Virus record (IMG/VR): IMGVR_UViG_3300014839_000478
Span: 1-26,841 of that record
Source of the DNA: a virus
Length of the DNA: 26,841 bases
Strand: one strand, 5' to 3'
Within the stretch, counting starts at the first letter, position 1, and every line of letters begins with the position of its first letter. Positions 4,035 through 26,841 of this stretch are shown one piece after another. Both the position numbers and the translations under genes were made by a program. The notes under the pieces are model-generated. The model searched no databases and was not told the DNA's origin. It was given only the letters and a program-made list of their open reading frames with translations.

Positions 4035-5492
4035 TTACTCCTTTACGTGCCAGCGGTCCAGTATCTCGCAATCGGATTTGATCGGCGTGCGCCACAGCCG
4101 CTCGCCGGTCTCTCTATCGTCCATCACATGATCGAAGACGTGCTGTACGATCTCACCGACCTCTGCGGCATAGTCTTCTTCTACCTCCGCGATGATTTGG
4201 TCATGTATCGAGAGCAGAGCTTCAATCCGAACACTAAGCGAGCGCAAGTGGTCGAACTCGTCTTCGCACTCGGCCATCGCGAGCTTCGTCTGTTCGGCGT
4301 TAGAGGCGGTCACGGCGAAGTTCTGGGCCTCGCGCAGACCCTCGCTGACTTTCCAGAACAGGGAGGATCGTACCTGTGGGATGTAACGTACACGTCCCCA
4401 TGGGTCCCAGACGAACCCGTACCTGCGCGCCCGGTAGTACTGCGTCTCGAAGTACGGCTGCACTTCCGGGTAGGCGGCGTGCCAGGAGGCGATGAACTGC
4501 TTGCACCAGTCCTCGGTAAGCCAGTCGGGCGGCGGCATCGAGGCGGCCCAGTAATCAGTGACCAGTTGCGCATACAGTCCCTTCTCGGTAGTCCCGTTCT
4601 GGATTCCGAAATTTACGCGCTTGCTCGGGAGCCGATGCTTGTACTTATCCACTTGAGCAGGGTCCGCGATCCCGAATGCCTTCATGGCGGTCGATTGGTG
4701 GATATCACCATCAGCGAGGTAGACCGAGATCATGGAGCGGGCGGCGGCCAGGTGGGCCAGGTCGCGTATCTCCATCTGCGAGAAGTCCACGCTCACGATC
4801 TTGTATCCAGGAGATCCAATAAAGGCAGCGCGAATACGAGAGCCAATGTCGCTCCGAATCGGTATGGTCTGAAGTGGCGGCTTCTTACACTGGATGCGTC
4901 CGGTGATCGCCCGTGTCGTCAGCCATGTTGTGTGCAAGCGGCGTGTAGGTTCTACATGAGCCAATTCGCAGATCGGGCAGCAGGGTCCGCGAGGATGCAG
5001 GATAGCCGTTTGTGGCAGCGTGTCACAGTAGGTCGTCTTGAGTTTCTGACGTTCCCGATATTGCTGTATGAGCGGTATAACCGGGTGCTGGTCATGCACC
5101 ATTTCTAAGTTCTTGCGGCTGGTCGAGACCTTGCCGGTGGATGTCGTCTTCAGTTTCTTGCCCTGCCCGACTTTCAAGAGGTCGAATAGCAAGACCCGGA
5201 TCTGCTCTGCCGATGCTGCGTTTATAGTCACCGACCCTTCCGCTTCCTCGATCTCGGCGGCGGCCGTCGCGAATCGGTCAAGCGCATCGGGAGGGATGTA
5301 GGAGGCGATGTCCTTCTGGAGCCCGGCCATCTCGCGTCCGAACTCGGAAGAGAGTTCCTGGAGGTAGGGAACATCCACTGCTACTCCCACTCTGCTCATT
5401 CGATTGGTCTGTGGGAGTATCGATAGGTCTAGACGGCGTATGTTCTCAAGATCCGGCTGGCCTGGAAGCGTGATTCCGTTATAGAGCGGCAT
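4035..5492 (-). CDS. polA: Family A DNA polymerase, polymerase domain only
   Basis: A 485-residue protein holding the thumb, palm and fingers of a family A polymerase but no exonuclease domain. Motif A is VSVDFSQMEIRDLAHLA (metal-binding D236). The O helix is RLPSKRVNFGIQNG (R287, K291, F295). Motif C is SIHDQIIAEV (H430, D431). TGRIQCKKPPLQTIP matches the conserved TGRLSS-PNLQNIP segment. Unusual points: N299 stands where E. coli Pol I has Y766, HDQ replaces HDE, and a Cys-rich insertion (CCPIC, about 171-175) precedes the palm. Proofreading is most likely supplied in trans by the UDG-exonuclease gene at 5751-7154. The start is 1 bp after the preceding stop. It contains one copy of the 13-bp palindrome. 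Confidence 0.95.
   Translation of the reverse strand: MPLYNGITLPGQPDLENIRRLDLSILPQTNRMSRVGVAVDVPYLQELSSEFGREMAGLQKDIASYIPPDALDRFATAAAEIEEAEGSVTINAASAEQIRVLLFDLLKVGQGKKLKTTSTGKVSTSRKNLEMVHDQHPVIPLIQQYRERQKLKTTYCDTLPQTAILHPRGPCCPICELAHVEPTRRLHTTWLTTRAITGRIQCKKPPLQTIPIRSDIGSRIRAAFIGSPGYKIVSVDFSQMEIRDLAHLAAARSMISVYLADGDIHQSTAMKAFGIADPAQVDKYKHRLPSKRVNFGIQNGTTEKGLYAQLVTDYWAASMPPPDWLTEDWCKQFIASWHAAYPEVQPYFETQYYRARRYGFVWDPWGRVRYIPQVRSSLFWKVSEGLREAQNFAVTASNAEQTKLAMAECEDEFDHLRSLSVRIEALLSIHDQIIAEVEEDYAAEVGEIVQHVFDHVMDDRETGERLWRTPIKSDCEILDRWHVKE
4944..4956. promoter_or_regulatory. 13-bp palindrome TGTAG-N3-CTACA, copy 1 (exact)
   Basis: TGTAGGTTCTACA lies inside the polymerase gene. It is one of four exact copies of this palindrome in the window. 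Binding by a repressor or by ParB is inferred; see the findings. Confidence 0.55.
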
Positions 5493-5493
5493 C

Positions 5494-5754
5494 TTACTCT
5501 TCAGTAATACTGTTTACAATTTTGCTGGAGCAATCGTTACAGCCTTCCGTATACAACCACGCAGCCTCACAGTCAGGTCTATGCACATTGTTGGTTATGC
5601 GACATAGTTCTGCACAATCCCTACGCGCTTCTTGATCTATCTCCACCAACAAGGAATCAAGAGCAGCGATATCCACTACATCGCAGTGGTAAGTTGTATT
5701 TCTAAGTAACTCTTCTGCTCTTTCATGAATCGCTTGCGACCGTTCTTTTGTCAT
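5494..5754 (-). CDS. Small Cys-containing hypothetical protein
   Basis: An 86-residue protein starting at the ATG at 5754, which overlaps the stop of the UDG-exonuclease gene as ATGA. It is helical and acidic with six Cys, four of them in the C-terminal third (DCEAAWLYTEGCNDCSS), perhaps metal-binding. No family was recognised. Its DNA is visibly more AT-rich than the polymerase genes on either side. It separates the two halves of what is a single polymerase protein in many phages, so it may be a later insertion. A longer frame to 5832 exists, but the ATGA junction decides the start. Confidence 0.7.
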   Translation of the reverse strand: MTKERSQAIHERAEELLRNTTYHCDVVDIAALDSLLVEIDQEARRDCAELCRITNNVHRPDCEAAWLYTEGCNDCSSKIVNSITEE

Positions 5755-7154
5755 AAGTCTCTGTCCCCCGTATATATCTTGAACGCACCATCTCGACGCC
5801 TCGCCAGTTCTACAGCCACTCTGCCACACCAATCTGCGTCCCCGACCGCGTACCTCACAGCTTCAGCCATCGAGCAGTTCCCGATTCCGAGAATGGGGTA
5901 GCGACCGGCTCGCGCTTCGACGTGCGTGACCATCCATTCGTTCAAGGGATCATGCCAGAAGGCATCCAGCCGCTCCCAAGGATCATACTCCGAGTTCACG
6001 TCCGTGAGCCGCAGGCAGCGCGTCAGCAGCGATTCGAGCGGTCCCTTCGAGACCTTCTCGCGCACCTTGGTTTTGAGTTGGATTCGCTCAGTAAACGATA
6101 GGTCGGCCTGCGCGATCTGGATTGCCTCCAGCATCCAGTTCTGGAGCGCGAGAACCGAGGCGGGACGGACTGTCTCTTCGTAAGAGGTCATGGTGTGGCG
6201 GAAGAGACGGTAGGCGAGCGCCTTGAGCCCTTGCGGTAAGTTTCCTAAGTGAAACGCTTCCTGCATGGTGTCGCGGTACCTAAGCACCCGTACCAGCATC
6301 CTTCTCATCTCTTCAAGGTCGTGCGCGGCATGGTGCATCGCAATATCCCAGCACCATAAACCAGAGTTGAGCCAGAAGTCTAAGGCGTCCAGTCCTTCCC
6401 GGTCATCAGCGCGAATTAGGATTCCGGTTTGGGGCTTGAAACTGACCTGCACCGACCAAGGCTTGCCGCCGTGACTTTCAGTGTCGAGTGCCGGTTGTGA
6501 GGAGTCGTTAGCGATGTTACAGTACTCGTTGACGGCATGGGCGCCACGGACGTAACGATAATCGACAGGCTCGGGCTTTGGGTCTTCTGTGAACACATCG
6601 AACCCGCGATGGTTCATGTCGATCTTGCCGTGCAGCCGGGTCCAATCGTCGATACACACTGTCATCCATTTCGATTCGTGCAGGCCGATGCTCGGGTGGT
6701 ACATCGGTACCAGCCAGCCTTCCCAGCCGAACAGCGTCCCGACCTTGCTGGTTGGCTGCGGAATACCGTGGTGCAAATCTAGCCGTATCCCTGGGACCAG
6801 AGAGCAGGCCGTAGACCCCAGCAGCAGGATCACTTCGGGCTTGGTGCGCCGGATCTCTTCAGGCAGATGGTGTGGCGCACAGTGAGCCACTTCCTTGTCG
6901 GTCGGCGTCTTGTTATTGTCGGCGCCGCAGAGAACACAGTTAGTCACGCGAACTTCTGATCTGTCCAGACCGGCTAACGGTAAATATAATTCGTCAAATT
7001 CTTGCCCTGTTTTACCACAAAAAGGTCTCCCAATTTGATTTTCTACTTGCCCTGGACGTTCACCTATACACAAGACCTTAGCGGGTTGCGGACCATCCCC
7101 GCTAATAGCACGATGCGTACACTTGCACTCTGGACACGGATCTCTCCAACTCAT
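5751..7154 (-). CDS. Uracil-DNA glycosylase (family 4/5 type) fused to a DnaQ-like 3'-5' exonuclease
   Basis: A 467-residue fusion. Residues 1-175 are a family 4-like uracil-DNA glycosylase: four likely iron-sulfur Cys (C7, C10, C76, C92), GERPGQVENQIGRPF (31-45) for the active-site loop, and MYHPS (151-155). Residues ~215-467 match the 3'-5' exonuclease of family A polymerases: Exo I LDTES (D224, E226), Exo II HHAAHDLEEM (D279), and Exo III YAVGD (Y435, D439). The first domain would remove uracil from DNA and the second proofread for the polymerase at 4035-5492. UDG-polymerase fusions are known in phages; here the chain is broken between exonuclease and polymerase. The ATG at 7154 overlaps the HNH stop as ATGA, which favours it over the in-frame ATG at 7196. 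Confidence 0.9.
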   Translation of the reverse strand: MSWRDPCPECKCTHRAISGDGPQPAKVLCIGERPGQVENQIGRPFCGKTGQEFDELYLPLAGLDRSEVRVTNCVLCGADNNKTPTDKEVAHCAPHHLPEEIRRTKPEVILLLGSTACSLVPGIRLDLHHGIPQPTSKVGTLFGWEGWLVPMYHPSIGLHESKWMTVCIDDWTRLHGKIDMNHRGFDVFTEDPKPEPVDYRYVRGAHAVNEYCNIANDSSQPALDTESHGGKPWSVQVSFKPQTGILIRADDREGLDALDFWLNSGLWCWDIAMHHAAHDLEEMRRMLVRVLRYRDTMQEAFHLGNLPQGLKALAYRLFRHTMTSYEETVRPASVLALQNWMLEAIQIAQADLSFTERIQLKTKVREKVSKGPLESLLTRCLRLTDVNSEYDPWERLDAFWHDPLNEWMVTHVEARAGRYPILGIGNCSMAEAVRYAVGDADWCGRVAVELARRRDGAFKIYTGDRDL

Positions 7155-7648
7155 CCAGATCGCCTCCACAAACCACGCTGGATAAACCCTACCCATGTTA
7201 CACTTACGTGATGTTTTTGGGATAATTCAGCGCGTGTTAACTGCGCACTGCAAATGTCTTCTACCTGCGCGGTAGTCAATCTCGCATTACCATTACGTAG
7301 AGCTTTCGGACGGGAATCTGGGTGGTTCTGCATCCCATGTCTGCCTTTACGCACCGAATCGCTCATATTGTCTTGTCGTGTTCCGTAAAAGTGATGGAAC
7401 GGATTGCAACACGGTGGGTTGTCGCAGTGATGACAAGTGTGCAGTTCGATAGGTTCGGGTAGACCTTTAACCAAGTACGATGCGATAGGATGAGCAAGTA
7501 CACTAATATCCTGAATCGAAAATGTTCCGTACCTTCTGTCTGTTATTGCTCCCAACCACAACCAACAGTCGTCTGTTCCTTGAACATCGACCTTAGACCA
7601 AAAGCGTTTGATATCCGCTTCGGTCAAGCTCAATACGATTGGGTTCAT
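7151..7648 (-). CDS. Free-standing HNH homing-type endonuclease
   Basis: A 165-residue protein. The core is an HNH_3-type ββα-metal site: HTCHHCDNPPCCNPFHHFYGTRQDN (about 70-94), with C72/C75/C80 likely structural and H85/H86/N94 near the active site. The C-terminus (about 115-160: LTTAQVEDICSAQLTRAELSQKHHVS) looks like a helix-turn-helix DNA-reading module. Such genes are common selfish endonucleases in phages. Its start (ATG 7648) and its stop (7151) both form ATGA overlaps with neighbours, so it sits in the operon without breaking it. The DNA is more AT-rich than around it, a sign of recent arrival. Target site unknown. Confidence 0.9.
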   Translation of the reverse strand: MNPIVLSLTEADIKRFWSKVDVQGTDDCWLWLGAITDRRYGTFSIQDISVLAHPIASYLVKGLPEPIELHTCHHCDNPPCCNPFHHFYGTRQDNMSDSVRKGRHGMQNHPDSRPKALRNGNARLTTAQVEDICSAQLTRAELSQKHHVSVTWVGFIQRGLWRRSG

Positions 7649-7839
7649 TGTTTCGCCTTCTCTACCTGAACGACTCCCAGTAATCGTTCCTCGTTGATGA
7701 AGACCTTGACCTTCGCGCCGCCATTGGCTTTCGACTCCGTCTCGGCCCACGCGAATATCTGCGCCTCGCTTTGCGCGAACCCCTGGATAGGATGACCGTC
7801 CCGCTCCACATCCACCACGACCGCACGGTACCTCATCAT
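7645..7839 (-). CDS. Small hypothetical protein
   Basis: A 64-residue protein beginning at tandem ATG codons (7839 and 7836). The first overlaps the stop of the ERCC4 nuclease gene as ATGA, and its own stop overlaps the HNH start in the same way. The sequence alternates β-strand-like stretches (RYRAVVVDVERDG; AKVKVFINEERLLGVVQVE) around a helix, suggesting a small compact domain. No known family was recognised. Coupled translation with the nuclease suggests an accessory role, but nothing more can be said. Confidence 0.75.
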   Translation of the reverse strand: MMRYRAVVVDVERDGHPIQGFAQSEAQIFAWAETESKANGGAKVKVFINEERLLGVVQVEKAKQ

Positions 7840-20434: not shown

Positions 20435-21355
20435 ATGAGTAAGTCTATTGTTTTCATAGCCGGTCAGAAATTGGCAGGAACCATGCTTACTGTACTGGGT
20501 CCCGTGAACGATACTTGGCGTGTGGTGGAATGCCTGTGTGACTGTGGCAACATTGTCCAGCTTCCGTACCAGCAGCTCTACTACGGGAAGTATTCTTGCG
20601 GGTGTACGAGACGTGGCCGCAAGTGCATCTTCCATCTTGGGGATCGCGTCGAAGGGACAATGCTTACGATTGTGCGGCCTCTTCGACCGGATTCCTGGCG
20701 CATCGTCGTCTGTAAATGCGATTGCGGAAAAGTAGTCGAACTGCTCTACAACACGTTGTTCAGCGGACGCTACTCGTGCGGTTGCACCAGGAAAACACGT
20801 ACCGATGCGGTCGATTATACGGGCATGACGGTCCACAACGGCAAGGGCAATCGAGGGTATGGCCGGCGTATCACGATCCTCTACCAAAATGAGGAGCAGC
20901 GCTGGGTGTACGTATGCGAGTGTTGTGCCGAGACCTTTGTGCTGCCTCGGGGCATGGAGCGGGGGATCAAGGCGGGACTCAAGGATATCGCTGTCGAGAC
21001 CTGCCCGAACTTCAAGGAATACTATCCTGCCGATCACATTGAGCGGTTGCACAACGCCTACATGGCAGAGTACGGCGTAAGCCTGTTCTATTTATACAGG
21101 CTTACCACCGGCGCGTCGAGGGACCGGTTGGCGGAGGAACTCGCTCCTTACTACGAGCGCAGGAACGTAAAGTACAAACGGCGCGGTGGGGTCAGCGGGT
21201 TCTACGGGTTCCCAACCAAGTCAGCCCCAAAATCCGACGCCAATAGTTTCATCGTGGCCGACGACACCGTTACTGAGCTTGTGCCGGTAGACCCGGACGG
21301 ATTCACGGAGCTTGATAGTGCCGCCGCCGTCGGTGTAGAGCCTACAAGCGAATGA
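20435..21355 (+). CDS. Protein with tandem CDCG...SCGC zinc modules
   Basis: A 306-residue protein, the only + strand gene in the right half. It has two clear tandem copies of a Cys module: GTMLTVLGPVNDTWRVVECL with CDCG and SCGCTRRGR (about 10-65), and GTMLTIVRPLRPDSWRIVVC with CDCG and SCGCTRKTR (about 70-125). A decayed third copy follows (RITILYQNEEQRWVYVCECC). Such modules occur in phage HNH and AP2-type proteins and probably bind zinc and DNA. No nuclease motif is visible here. It has no ribosome-binding site, and its end overlaps the convergent recombinase fragment by 14 bp. It is flanked by two identical 13-bp palindromes. Function unknown. Confidence 0.8.
   Translation: MSKSIVFIAGQKLAGTMLTVLGPVNDTWRVVECLCDCGNIVQLPYQQLYYGKYSCGCTRRGRKCIFHLGDRVEGTMLTIVRPLRPDSWRIVVCKCDCGKVVELLYNTLFSGRYSCGCTRKTRTDAVDYTGMTVHNGKGNRGYGRRITILYQNEEQRWVYVCECCAETFVLPRGMERGIKAGLKDIAVETCPNFKEYYPADHIERLHNAYMAEYGVSLFYLYRLTTGASRDRLAEELAPYYERRNVKYKRRGGVSGFYGFPTKSAPKSDANSFIVADDTVTELVPVDPDGFTELDSAAAVGVEPTSE
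21334..21346. promoter_or_regulatory. 13-bp palindrome TGTAG-N3-CTACA, copy 6 (exact)
   Basis: TGTAGAGCCTACA is identical to copy 5, 1,071 bp away. It covers the convergent ends of the zinc-module gene and the recombinase C-terminal gene. Confidence 0.6.
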
Positions 21356-21632
21356 AGTCGCCGGCGTTCGCCTCTTCGCCGGTCTGGGTGTAGAGTTCGG
21401 TCGTTCGCGCGCTCGCGTGACCTAGCGAGTGCTGGATGACCTCTATCGGTGCGCCGCCCAGCCGGGCTAGTTTGGCGTGAGTCCGGCGCAGGTCGTGAGG
21501 GTTCAGGTCGGGTATTCCGATCGCGGCGCCGTAGCGCTGTACGATGTCGCGCACGGAGGTAGTAGAGAGCGAGCCGTTCAGAGAGCCTGAGAGCGAGAAA
21601 GAGCGGAGCAGTAGCAGGGGCTTGTTAGGCAT
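21342..21632 (-). CDS. Tyrosine recombinase, C-terminal catalytic part only
   Basis: A 96-residue protein carrying the second half of a tyrosine recombinase catalytic domain: HDLRR (H46, R49, the HxxR box), HSLGHAS (H72), and TTELYTQT (nucleophile Y81). It lacks the first catalytic Arg and Lys, which are encoded by the separate gene at 22386-23033. The ATG at 21632 overlaps the stop of the intervening gene (ATGCCTAA), implying coupled translation. It may assemble with the N-terminal part into a split enzyme, or be the remnant of a broken integrase. The motif call is sure; activity is not. Confidence 0.9.
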   Translation of the reverse strand: MPNKPLLLLRSFSLSGSLNGSLSTTSVRDIVQRYGAAIGIPDLNPHDLRRTHAKLARLGGAPIEVIQHSLGHASARTTELYTQTGEEANAGDFIRL

Positions 21633-22410
21633 ATGCCTCCATGATCTTCTTACTAGCTTCGCGTGCTTCGGGAGGCATCGAACCTAACTCGAAGTTCCAG
21701 TCAGGATGTTCGGTTAGTGCCAGTTCTAAGATTCTCTTCGCGCGGCCGAAAGCCATGGTCTTCGACCCTAAGCCGCGCCCGCTCTTTACATGTGTCACGT
21801 TCCAGCCGGCCTTCGGTTTCACGACACTTTCGCCGTCTGTCCAATCGGACTTTGTGCCGTTCTGGGTTAGTGCTAGGCCGCAGCCACTCGGATGTGCAAT
21901 GACCATACCTTCATCTCGCCGTTTCAGTCGTGCGTTGTAGTATGCTTCCGCGCTCCATTCGGCATCGAGCGGGTTTGGGTGCCAGCCGTTCGAGCGCTTA
22001 TCGACTGGCGGTTTCGGAAAGTTCTTAACCGTTGCGGGAATCCGATGCGAGTCCTCTACTATGATCGTCGCGGCGAGCGCGATCAGTTCTGTCCGTTCGA
22101 TTGGAGCCGGGTCCCAGACGGTAGCCCAATCGCGCGCTTCCGGGTGGCTCCTCTGGTATTCCCACCAATCGTCTACCGCTATGTGTGTCTGTCCGTCGTG
22201 GCTCACGCGCCACTGAAGCGAGCCGGAGTAGTCTAGCTTAGTCTCGTACTTGCGCTCCCACGAGAGCATGTAGTGGATGCCCGCCGCATCGCAGGCGAGC
22301 GCCAAGCGCAGAACGAACCGAGCCTGCGACGTGATCGGCTCAGGTTTGCGACAATGGCCATGTTCGTGCCGTCTCTCGACCGCCTTTATCCATGCTGTTG
22401 ATCTGTGCAT
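21625..22410 (-). CDS. Hypothetical protein between two recombinase halves
   Basis: A 261-residue protein from the ATG at 22410, with GGAG 8 nt upstream, inside the 3' end of the recombinase N-terminal gene. The sequence is Trp-rich in the first half (SWERKYETKLDYSGSLQWRV; DDWWEYQRSHPEARDWATVW) and basic in the second (SKTMAFGRAKRILELALTEHP). No homing endonuclease, reverse transcriptase or other known motif was seen. It overlaps the recombinase halves by 25 bp upstream and 8 bp downstream, so all three seem translated as one unit. It could be a recombination accessory factor; this is inference from position. Confidence 0.8.
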   Translation of the reverse strand: MHRSTAWIKAVERRHEHGHCRKPEPITSQARFVLRLALACDAAGIHYMLSWERKYETKLDYSGSLQWRVSHDGQTHIAVDDWWEYQRSHPEARDWATVWDPAPIERTELIALAATIIVEDSHRIPATVKNFPKPPVDKRSNGWHPNPLDAEWSAEAYYNARLKRRDEGMVIAHPSGCGLALTQNGTKSDWTDGESVVKPKAGWNVTHVKSGRGLGSKTMAFGRAKRILELALTEHPDWNFELGSMPPEAREASKKIMEAYA

Positions 22411-23033
22411 TGCTTTGTCTCCTCGATCCACTCCGCAATCAGTTGTGCCGCCCAGCCAGGAACGCTGACGCTCCTGACTCTGCCGCCCTTGCCTACCAGA
22501 TTCCTGATAAGCATCCGGCCATCCCTGGTGACTAGCTGGTCGGTGGTTAGTGCCACGGCTTCAGCTCTCCGAAGTCCACACCCTACCAGGAGCGCGAGCA
22601 GACACCGGTCGCGTCGCCCGATAGCCGTAGTCGGGTCCGGCGCCGCCAGTAGTGCCACAGTCTGCTGCTCATTGAGCCAGCGGCCGACGCGCACACCTGC
22701 TGTTTTCTTTCCCTTGATCCGCTCGATTTGTGCCGCTTGTTCTTGGGCGATCCAGCCGAGATCCGCTGCTTCACCGGCCAGCTTCTTGAGCGCGGCGAGC
22801 GCCTGGTTACGCACTTGTGCCGAGCAACCGGCCAGCTCCAAGGCGCGGAGGTACCGTTTGACGCTCTCGCGGTCTAATGCAGTTGTGCCGTCTCGCCAGC
22901 GCAGCCAAGCGCGGATGCGCGACTCGTAGACCCGGCGAGTCGTGGCGGCCAGGCCCGATAGTGCCGTGGAGATGGCACGCTCTTGGAGCGAGTCACAGGG
23001 CGGTACGAGGGCGATAGCGTCCATCGTCGTCAC
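22386..23033 (-). CDS. Tyrosine recombinase, N-terminal and first catalytic part
   Basis: A 215-residue protein. Residues ~12-105 form a SAM-like core-binding domain (TTRRVYESRIRAWLRWRDG). GCGLRRAEAVAL supplies the first catalytic Arg (R155) and GKGGRVRSVSVPG the β-hairpin Lys (K182). It stops soon after, at the point where the family normally continues toward HxxR. The rest is found in the gene at 21342-21632, in the same frame but separated by stops and another gene. The GTG at 23033 with AGGAG 7 nt upstream is the best start; it lies 11 bp after the preceding stop. An ATG at 23024 is the alternative. Confidence 0.9.
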   Translation of the reverse strand: MTTMDAIALVPPCDSLQERAISTALSGLAATTRRVYESRIRAWLRWRDGTTALDRESVKRYLRALELAGCSAQVRNQALAALKKLAGEAADLGWIAQEQAAQIERIKGKKTAGVRVGRWLNEQQTVALLAAPDPTTAIGRRDRCLLALLVGCGLRRAEAVALTTDQLVTRDGRMLIRNLVGKGGRVRSVSVPGWAAQLIAEWIEETKQCTDQQHG

Positions 23034-23043
23034 TTGTTCTCTC

Positions 23044-23484
23044 CTACGCCGTGGGAACGCAGATACCCTCTCTGCCATAGTCGTCCGTCTTCCCACTGGG
23101 GACCGTAATCTTGACCGTGATGCCGCGCGGGTCTCCCGAGAAAATCACGCCGAATCCCTGCCCGAGTCCAGCCACAATCGCGCTGATGCGCTTCTCTAGC
23201 TGTGCCTCGCGCTTCTTGCACCATTTCGCGTGGCGGTCGTAGATCCGTTGCAGCTTGTCGTTGGGCAGGTTCGCCTGTGCGTATGGCGTCAGCTCCGGCC
23301 CGTTGCACACGGCCTTTTGGATGTGCGCATAGGTCTTGCTGTGACGGCATAGCAGCCGCGCGGCTACAAGCGCATAGGGCCTTTGTGCCGGCCGCAAGTA
23401 ATCCTCTATGCCTAGTTGCAGTTCCGCCTCATTCTGTAGCAGCGTTTCAAACGCAGTACGTGCTTCAGACTCTTTCCGCGTCAT
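23044..23484 (-). CDS. Hypothetical protein upstream of the recombinase
   Basis: A 146-residue helical, basic protein (RRxLCRHSKTYAHIQ-like region; KWCKKREAQLEKRISAIV). The C-terminal part (GFGVIFSGDPRGITVKITVPSG) is β-hairpin-like. No family was recognised. The ATG at 23484 has GAGG about 8 nt upstream. It leads the recombinase unit. The style of the C-terminus recalls small plasmid proteins of unknown function. Confidence 0.75.
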   Translation of the reverse strand: MTRKESEARTAFETLLQNEAELQLGIEDYLRPAQRPYALVAARLLCRHSKTYAHIQKAVCNGPELTPYAQANLPNDKLQRIYDRHAKWCKKREAQLEKRISAIVAGLGQGFGVIFSGDPRGITVKITVPSGKTDDYGREGICVPTA

Positions 23485-25490: not shown

Positions 25491-26134
25491 CGATTCACCT
25501 CGAAAAATGCCTTTGCAAAACCAGGGGCTGTCTTCTCACGCTCTCGCTTCCAGGAACTAGACATGCGCGCTATCGTGCCGGACGTGTGACCGCTCGGCAT
25601 TCTGACAGTCGGGGGAGTTGCCACGATGTTGGTGGGCTCCGGCTTCCGCGCCGTTCCCCAGATGTAGGTCTGCTTCACCCACGGGTCGCCATGTTGCCAC
25701 GGTTGGAACTGCCAGGCAGGGGCGGGAATCTCCGGCATGAGCTTGCGCTGACGGCCGGGCGGATTCTCCAGCGCCCACCATCCGCGCGCCTTCTGGCAGA
25801 TTCGGAAGCACGCGCGGAACAGTTTAATGGCTCGCTCGGTTGTCCCATCCGAATCCATCCGAGGCCACCAGCGGGCACCGGGCCGACAGAAGGCGGCGCA
25901 GCACGGAGCGGCCAGGACAGCCCACGGGTCGCCGCAAAATCCGTAATGGGGAAGCCAGAACACGTCGTATCCCTGCGTCAAGTCCTTCCCCACACACCAC
26001 AACCTTTCACCGGCCTGTACCGCTCCGACGGGATACGCGAGGTCAACACGGACGACGGTGTACCCGGCATCGACGTAGGCTTGAGACCAGACGCCAGAGA
26101 TGTCACACAGGCTGATGACGAGCCGTTCGATCAC
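25487..26134 (-). CDS. C5-cytosine methyltransferase-like protein, IS passenger
   Basis: A 215-residue protein with a GTG start at 26134 overlapping the transposase stop (GTGA). VISLCDISGVWSQAYVDAGY is motif I for S-adenosylmethionine. LAAPCCAAFC holds the Pro-Cys of motif IV (normally PPC), and WWALENPPGR resembles motif VI. QTYIWG and PGFAKAFFEVNR at the end match short phage-type cytosine methyltransferase-like proteins. It lacks an obvious long target-recognition domain. It may methylate DNA to protect or regulate the element, or the family may have another substrate; catalytic activity is uncertain because of the altered PC context. Confidence 0.75.
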   Translation of the reverse strand: MIERLVISLCDISGVWSQAYVDAGYTVVRVDLAYPVGAVQAGERLWCVGKDLTQGYDVFWLPHYGFCGDPWAVLAAPCCAAFCRPGARWWPRMDSDGTTERAIKLFRACFRICQKARGWWALENPPGRQRKLMPEIPAPAWQFQPWQHGDPWVKQTYIWGTARKPEPTNIVATPPTVRMPSGHTSGTIARMSSSWKREREKTAPGFAKAFFEVNR

Positions 26135-26841
26135 GCCACCACCTCCGCCGTAAGCTGCTTGTATGTGAGCCGCTTGCCAGCGATGGCGTCGATGAAGGAA
26201 TCCAGCCGCGCCAACGTGTGCCGTTTCACGTCGCCTTCATTCAGCCGGAACGTGAACTCATCGACGTACCGGGCCAAGTGCTTGGGGCTGACCTGATGGT
26301 AAACGCCATGAATCCCGCGCTTCAGAACGGCCCAAACGCTCTCGATGCTGTTGGTGTTGGCCGCTCCCCGCGCGTACTCGCCCGCGCTGTGGTTGACCGT
26401 ATCGTGCCGAAAGAAGAGCCCGTCCAGGTCGCTGAAAACCATGTGGTCATCGGTGTACAACTGGGTGCCAACTTCAACCGCATCGTGAATCTGGCCGTGG
26501 ATGGCGTCAAGGCTGCGAACCTCGGTAACCGTGGCCCGCGTCCGGCCTCCGCGTTCGCGCATTCCCAGGACGGCGGTTTTTCCAACGGAGCCGCGCCCGG
26601 CGTGGAGCTTCTTGGACTCGTGCTTGTTGGCTTCCTTCCCGCCGAAGAAGGCTTCGTCAATCTCCACGATGCCCTTGAGCTTGTCGGTGGTGTCGGGGCC
26701 GCTGCAAGCCTCGCGGAGCCGTCCCAGGATAAACCAGGCGGTCTTCTGAGTGACGCCGATTTCCTTCGCCAACTGCATCGAAGAGATTCCCTTTCGGGCC
26801 GTCACCAGCAGGTACATGGCGTAAACCCACTTATTCAGCGG
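26131..26841 (-). CDS. IS1595/ISXO2-like transposase, 5' end outside window
   Basis: An open frame with no stop up to the window edge; an internal ATG lies at 26817 but the family start is further upstream, as PLNKWVYA precedes it in frame. The catalytic region shows IVEIDEAFFGGKE (first Asp), LYTDDHMVF (second Asp), and NTNSIESVWAVLKRGIHGVYH (final acidic/Asn position). KGISSMQLAKEIGVTQKTAW is the helix-turn-helix. The N-terminal zinc ribbon is not in view. It appears intact in the visible part and would move the element at 25335. Confidence 0.9.
   Translation of the reverse strand, partial: PLNKWVYAMYLLVTARKGISSMQLAKEIGVTQKTAWFILGRLREACSGPDTTDKLKGIVEIDEAFFGGKEANKHESKKLHAGRGSVGKTAVLGMRERGGRTRATVTEVRSLDAIHGQIHDAVEVGTQLYTDDHMVFSDLDGLFFRHDTVNHSAGEYARGAANTNSIESVWAVLKRGIHGVYHQVSPKHLARYVDEFTFRLNEGDVKRHTLARLDSFIDAIAGKRLTYKQLTAEVVA

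Follow-up and report, generated by a model that had tools for sequence, protein, structure and literature searches.

The window examined here, 26,841 bases long (IMG/VR virus record IMGVR_UViG_3300014839_000478, classed as linear), is a fragment of a phage genome. Its sole tyrosine recombinase is encoded by two genes, referred to below as the N half and the C half, with a 261-codon gene between them; in the direction of transcription the order on the minus strand is N half, middle gene, C half (Table 1). On recheck, coordinates, strand, overlaps and catalytic residues all proved to be as given in an earlier note on this DNA. In Pfam searches the N half matches PF00589 (Phage_integrase) over positions 2-86 (E 1.8e-11) as well as PF02899, the core-binding domain (E 3.9e-5), and the C half takes up PF00589 again at positions 103-168 (E 9.1e-11). 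Essentially only a loop is therefore missing from the two halves taken together. The signature residues of the family (Arg I, Lys, HxxR, His/Trp and Tyr) are supplied by both halves jointly, in the window and in each of the four other split phages described below. What is found in place of the single polypeptide expected of PF00589 is two ORFs with a gene between. A single chain is usual for tyrosine recombinases rather than a defining feature of their chemistry; judged by sequence, the pair keeps its place in the family, as a two-gene variant.

The three genes form a co-linear operon. As the earlier note had it, the middle gene has its own ribosome-binding site (GAGGAG, within the N half) and overlaps both of its neighbors; translational coupling is likely at each overlap. 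The junctions are built alike in all five split phages: the Shine-Dalgarno sequence of the first gap gene lies at or just past the end of the N half, and the C half starts roughly 8-16 bp inside the gene before it.

Table 1. Split recombinase locus of the window, with other genes mentioned in the text
Feature	Position	Strand	Remarks
N half of tyrosine recombinase	22386..23033	-	GTG start, 215 aa; core-binding SAM-like domain, R155 (Arg I), K182 (beta-hairpin Lys)
Middle gene, no family match	21625..22410	-	261 aa, ATG at 22410; gap cargo
C half of tyrosine recombinase	21342..21632	-	ATG start, 96 aa; HxxR (H46, R49), H72, nucleophile Y81
N-half Shine-Dalgarno GGAG	23041..23044	-	duplex energy -7.3 kcal/mol
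Middle-gene Shine-Dalgarno GAGGAG	22419..22424	-	within last N-half codons; duplex energy -8.9 kcal/mol
C-half Shine-Dalgarno GGAGG	21636..21640	-	inside middle-gene end; duplex energy -9.3 kcal/mol
Overlap, N half and middle gene	22386..22410	-	25 bp; likely translational coupling
Overlap, middle gene and C half	21625..21632	-	8 bp; likely translational coupling
Convergent gene	20435..21355	+	partial match to HNH PHROG; 14-bp overlap with C-half end
Family A DNA polymerase region	4035..5492, 5494..5763, 5751..7196	-	polymerase also in two genes
HNH endonuclease-like gene	7151..7750	-	overlaps start of UDG/exonuclease gene
IS1595-type DDE transposase	26131..26817	-	at record end

Sequence similar to the convergent gene that abuts the C half also adjoins the recombinase in three related phages (those of records L009, L010 and L002), and it is present in the syntenic region of a relative, G011, that is without a recombinase. 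The motif GGCACAA, suspected by eye of strong over-representation, proved to be mildly enriched and not in all genomes (about twofold or more in some of the window, G001, G005 and G006).

Recurrence of the split among related phages

The same split, at the same loop, is found in five phages on separate contigs: the window and four records from other metagenomes, L002 (52 kb), L003 (63 kb), L006 (20 kb) and L010 (63 kb). L002 and L003 were found by a search with the C half; L006 and L010, together with L008, L009 and L036, came from alignments of the halves. Related recombinases are few (only six were found), and a scan of the genome collection yielded nothing beyond distant Xer-like C-terminal matches. 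The N halves of the four other split phages are 48-61% identical to that of the window and the C halves, the better conserved of the two, 65-69%. Recurrence in four other related phages takes the split out of the realm of chance. L036 is the phage of L010 from a different sample: its N half and first middle genes are identical to those of L010 and it ends within the gap, which argues against an assembly error. L008 ends inside its N half and is uninformative on the split.

None of the five split phages has lost a catalytic residue. Pairwise dN/dS is 0.16-0.31 for both halves wherever dS could be estimated, these values being rough because synonymous change is saturated. In four of the five phages the N and C halves share a reading frame (about 1 in 20 by chance), stops between them notwithstanding; several of these stops are in frame, and simple read-through of the gap is ruled out. 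The earlier note had looked to recurrence of the three-gene order with purifying selection on every gene. The split recurs and both halves are under such selection; a common middle gene does not recur.

Another recombinase does not appear to stand in for the divided one. PF00589 finds just the two halves in every split record, bearing in mind that the window is itself a fragment, and no serine recombinase was found in these records. The case is clearest for L003, whose genome (G002) is closed by a 70-bp direct terminal repeat and likewise yields only the two halves. The undamaged second integrase that the earlier note would have counted against a working split enzyme was thus not found in any of them.

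An intact relative and one without the enzyme

The phage of L009 has one intact recombinase of 327 aa, and its genome (G005) has a 127-bp terminal repeat, as expected for a closed assembly. The AlphaFold model of this protein (mean pLDDT 80.9) has a Cre/IntI/Xer-like fold, with IntI and Cre as the best structural matches, and it locates the cut: the corresponding region, residues 224-231, is a loop that joins helix 210-223 to strand 232-234 and lies after Lys199 and before the HxxR box. The precise split read from the window, after the beta-hairpin Lys and ahead of the HxxR box, is accordingly borne out and is common to the five phages. A linker close to AAGIxxG spans this loop in the intact relatives, recombinases of Acidobacteriota and Deinococcus plasmids included; in L009 it reads AAGIIDG, and it is absent from every split phage. 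Since L009 keeps a linker of this type, it is most simply a form that was never split, not a re-fusion.

The nearest intact recombinases are carried by Acidobacteriota plasmids, and the top-listed match to the helicase is from a Tunturiibacter phage; together these hint at an acidobacterial host for the window phage. One plasmid recombinase, of Acidisarcina polymorpha (L059:2067-3091), is annotated as two overlapping integrase ORFs; its break is well upstream of the phage split point and is probably an ordinary frameshift.

Five core proteins group the window with the phage of L009 (96/97), apart from the other split phages. This leaves two histories: repeated splitting at the one loop, or swapping of the locus among phages. 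Support in the recombinase tree is insufficient to tell a single origin from several: neither a clade of split recombinases (p-AU 0.37) nor a grouping of the window with L009 (p 0.33) is rejected. The circular genome G011, with a 127-bp repeat at its ends, includes the syntenic region and lacks the recombinase; phages of this group can evidently do without the enzyme.

An intact gene in the window's own sister phage, and a relative that has lost the recombinase or never had it, are what one might expect if a gene insertion had recently broken the integrase and left two decaying pseudogenes. That explanation is nevertheless unlikely, and already largely refuted: the same split is seen in five diverged phages with every catalytic residue in place, the dN/dS values are those of constrained genes, and start signals and overlaps have been kept. 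The earlier note had named an intact relative beside a lone, decaying copy as a finding that would refute its reading; the relative exists, but the window copy is one of five and shows no decay. It is less likely still that one half functions by itself, for example the N half as a DNA-binding regulator, with the other as a passenger. The N half does contain a core-binding domain and could bind DNA alone. The supposed passenger is then the better conserved half, however, and its HxxR, His and Tyr make sense only in combination with the Arg I and Lys of the N half.

The genes in the gap

Each split phage has different genes in the gap: one gene of 261 aa in the window, two (67 and 44 aa) in L002, single genes of 82 aa in L003 and 190 aa in L006 (195 with an upstream ATG), and three (144, 65 and 133 aa) in L010. 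There is no detectable similarity among the middle proteins of the five phages, and no copy of any of them elsewhere in the compared genomes. The middle gene of the window has coding-like codon use (0.21 bits per codon in frame, with the other two same-strand frames negative). Its protein has no match in viral contigs, phages, plasmids, Pfam or PHROGs, and an AlphaFold model made without an alignment (mean pLDDT 33.5) is useless. The L006 protein and the 133-aa protein of L010 resemble repeat-rich phage families; most gap proteins are without database relatives, and no middle gene matches an endonuclease family.

A conserved position occupied by differing sequences is also what different introns at one site would produce, and one can imagine an intron or other element that is removed from RNA or protein to give one continuous recombinase. 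That is very improbable. There is no Rfam match in the gap, even with a permissive threshold for the window, and the window's middle protein has no Pfam match, on which grounds intron and intein were both rejected; the gap is almost wholly taken up by genes that have their own ribosome-binding sites and overlap both halves, and the AAGIxxG linker that intact relatives conserve is missing from the halves. The middle protein might also be a regulator of the recombinase or, as the earlier note suggested, a third subunit. Its place in the same operon of the window, with overlaps and likely coupling, speaks for this idea, which nevertheless has next to no chance of being right: each phage has its own middle genes, unrelated to those of the others, which makes them cargo and refutes a fixed third subunit, and one relative does without any middle protein.

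The gap is better described, as far as sequence comparison goes, as a slot in which unrelated small phage genes appear to turn over between relatives. One probable trace of such turnover is seen in L010, where a 65-bp direct repeat (L010:3850-3914 and L010:4521-4585, 98.5% identical) marks a second copy of the N-half end, located after cargo gene two and before cargo gene three. The copy is probably the scar of a recombination event that placed a new cargo pair ahead of an older one.

A recombinase in two polypeptides?

We think it likely, from the recurrent split, the retained catalytic set and the selection on both halves, and by analogy with other divided enzymes, that this recombinase is encoded as two polypeptides that assemble and work as one Cre/Xer-type enzyme. 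The core-binding domain would come from the N half, along with Arg I and the beta-hairpin Lys, and the beta4-beta5 hairpin from the C half, along with HxxR, the second His and the Tyr nucleophile. Translated from one operon in which starts and stops overlap, the halves could associate during coupled translation, without being covalently joined at the loop that leads from the helix after beta3 to strand beta4. Once assembled, they may act as an ordinary Cre/Xer-type protomer, either in integration or in the resolution of phage-genome multimers, and the gap would be a tolerated slot where unrelated small phage genes are gained and exchanged. The earlier note's reading, an operon arrangement with an integrase that may work in its split form, is supported, and both halves are under purifying selection. 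Attachment sites for the recombinase were not found. A ParB-like gene is found near the recombinase genes in the window; no match to ParA was found.

A bolder version would have the loop position as an active gene-capture slot: the still-functional split recombinase permits swaps of cargo, the split is kept because it is useful and is not merely tolerated, and perhaps the recombinase itself or a neighboring nuclease promotes the exchange. We regard this as doubtful, if somewhat less so than the alternatives discussed above.

Split enzymes, engineered and natural

The analogy with other divided enzymes on which two-subunit assembly leans is drawn from Cre and from phage NrdA and gp43. When Cre is cut at Lys244/Asn245, a site that separates beta4 from beta5 and likewise lies between the Lys and the HxxR box, its activity returns to near wild-type levels with no need for dimerizing tags (PMC5633763). 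The engineered cuts (Lys244/Asn245, and 232/233 with split inteins) and the phage cut thus all fall between Lys and HxxR, near the beta4-beta5 hairpin. They differ in that the Cre split is artificial, that the natural cut comes one strand earlier, and that some 6-8 linker residues have been lost or replaced in the phages.

The closest parallel comes from phage enzymes encoded in pieces: both the split NrdA of Aeh1 and the divided gp43 of Aeromonas phage 25 show activity in two-chain form (PMC2988022). These and similar genes in pieces (Aeromonas phage Aeh1 NrdA, split by mobE; the gp43A/gp43B DNA polymerase of phages 25 and 44RR; the T4 topoisomerase, split by mobA) share with the present case the division of one enzyme between two genes, with another gene or sequence between, and the retention of both halves with complementary domains. 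Here, in contrast, the enzyme is a tyrosine recombinase, and the insert is no recognizable homing endonuclease and is different in every phage. Splits by homing endonuclease genes are the best-known cases, not the only ones. The window phage group has a second divided enzyme, its family A DNA polymerase: each of the six phages compared encodes a UDG plus 3'-5' exonuclease part and a polymerase part in separate genes, and between these lie 0-2 differing small genes. An HNH endonuclease-like gene overlaps the start of the UDG/exonuclease gene in the window. The polymerase split is comparable with that of the OM43 phages MEP401 and MEP402, where a small unknown gene segments a family A DNA polymerase into two ORFs (PMC10580990); the split enzyme there is a polymerase, not a recombinase.

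The archaeal suicidal integrases (SSV-type, pT26-2, pTN3) are likewise tyrosine recombinases found in two pieces, Int(N) and Int(C). They are split by their own integration, the att site being inside the gene, and the pieces bound the integrated element and are regarded as inactive (PMC8371274). In the phages the halves are instead part of the phage genome, on the same strand and 0.2-1.1 kb apart. A search of the joints for target-site duplications or att-like repeats gave no clear hit, and no direct repeat between N-half end and C-half start stands clearly above the shuffled level in any of the five split phages. Beyond these archaeal cases, searches of the open-access literature yielded no naturally split bacterial or phage tyrosine recombinase. 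The family and the genes-in-pieces principle are already known; a conserved, cargo-bearing split in a recombinase appears to be new.

Significance

Tyrosine recombinases are central tools and models, and they are known as single chains. A natural split, kept in diverged phages close to the cut that engineers chose in Cre, would be a source of evolved two-part recombinases for use in conditional genome engineering and would offer a way to ask why phage enzymes fragment. The split locus also shows a precise position within a gene at which unrelated small genes turn over between related phages.
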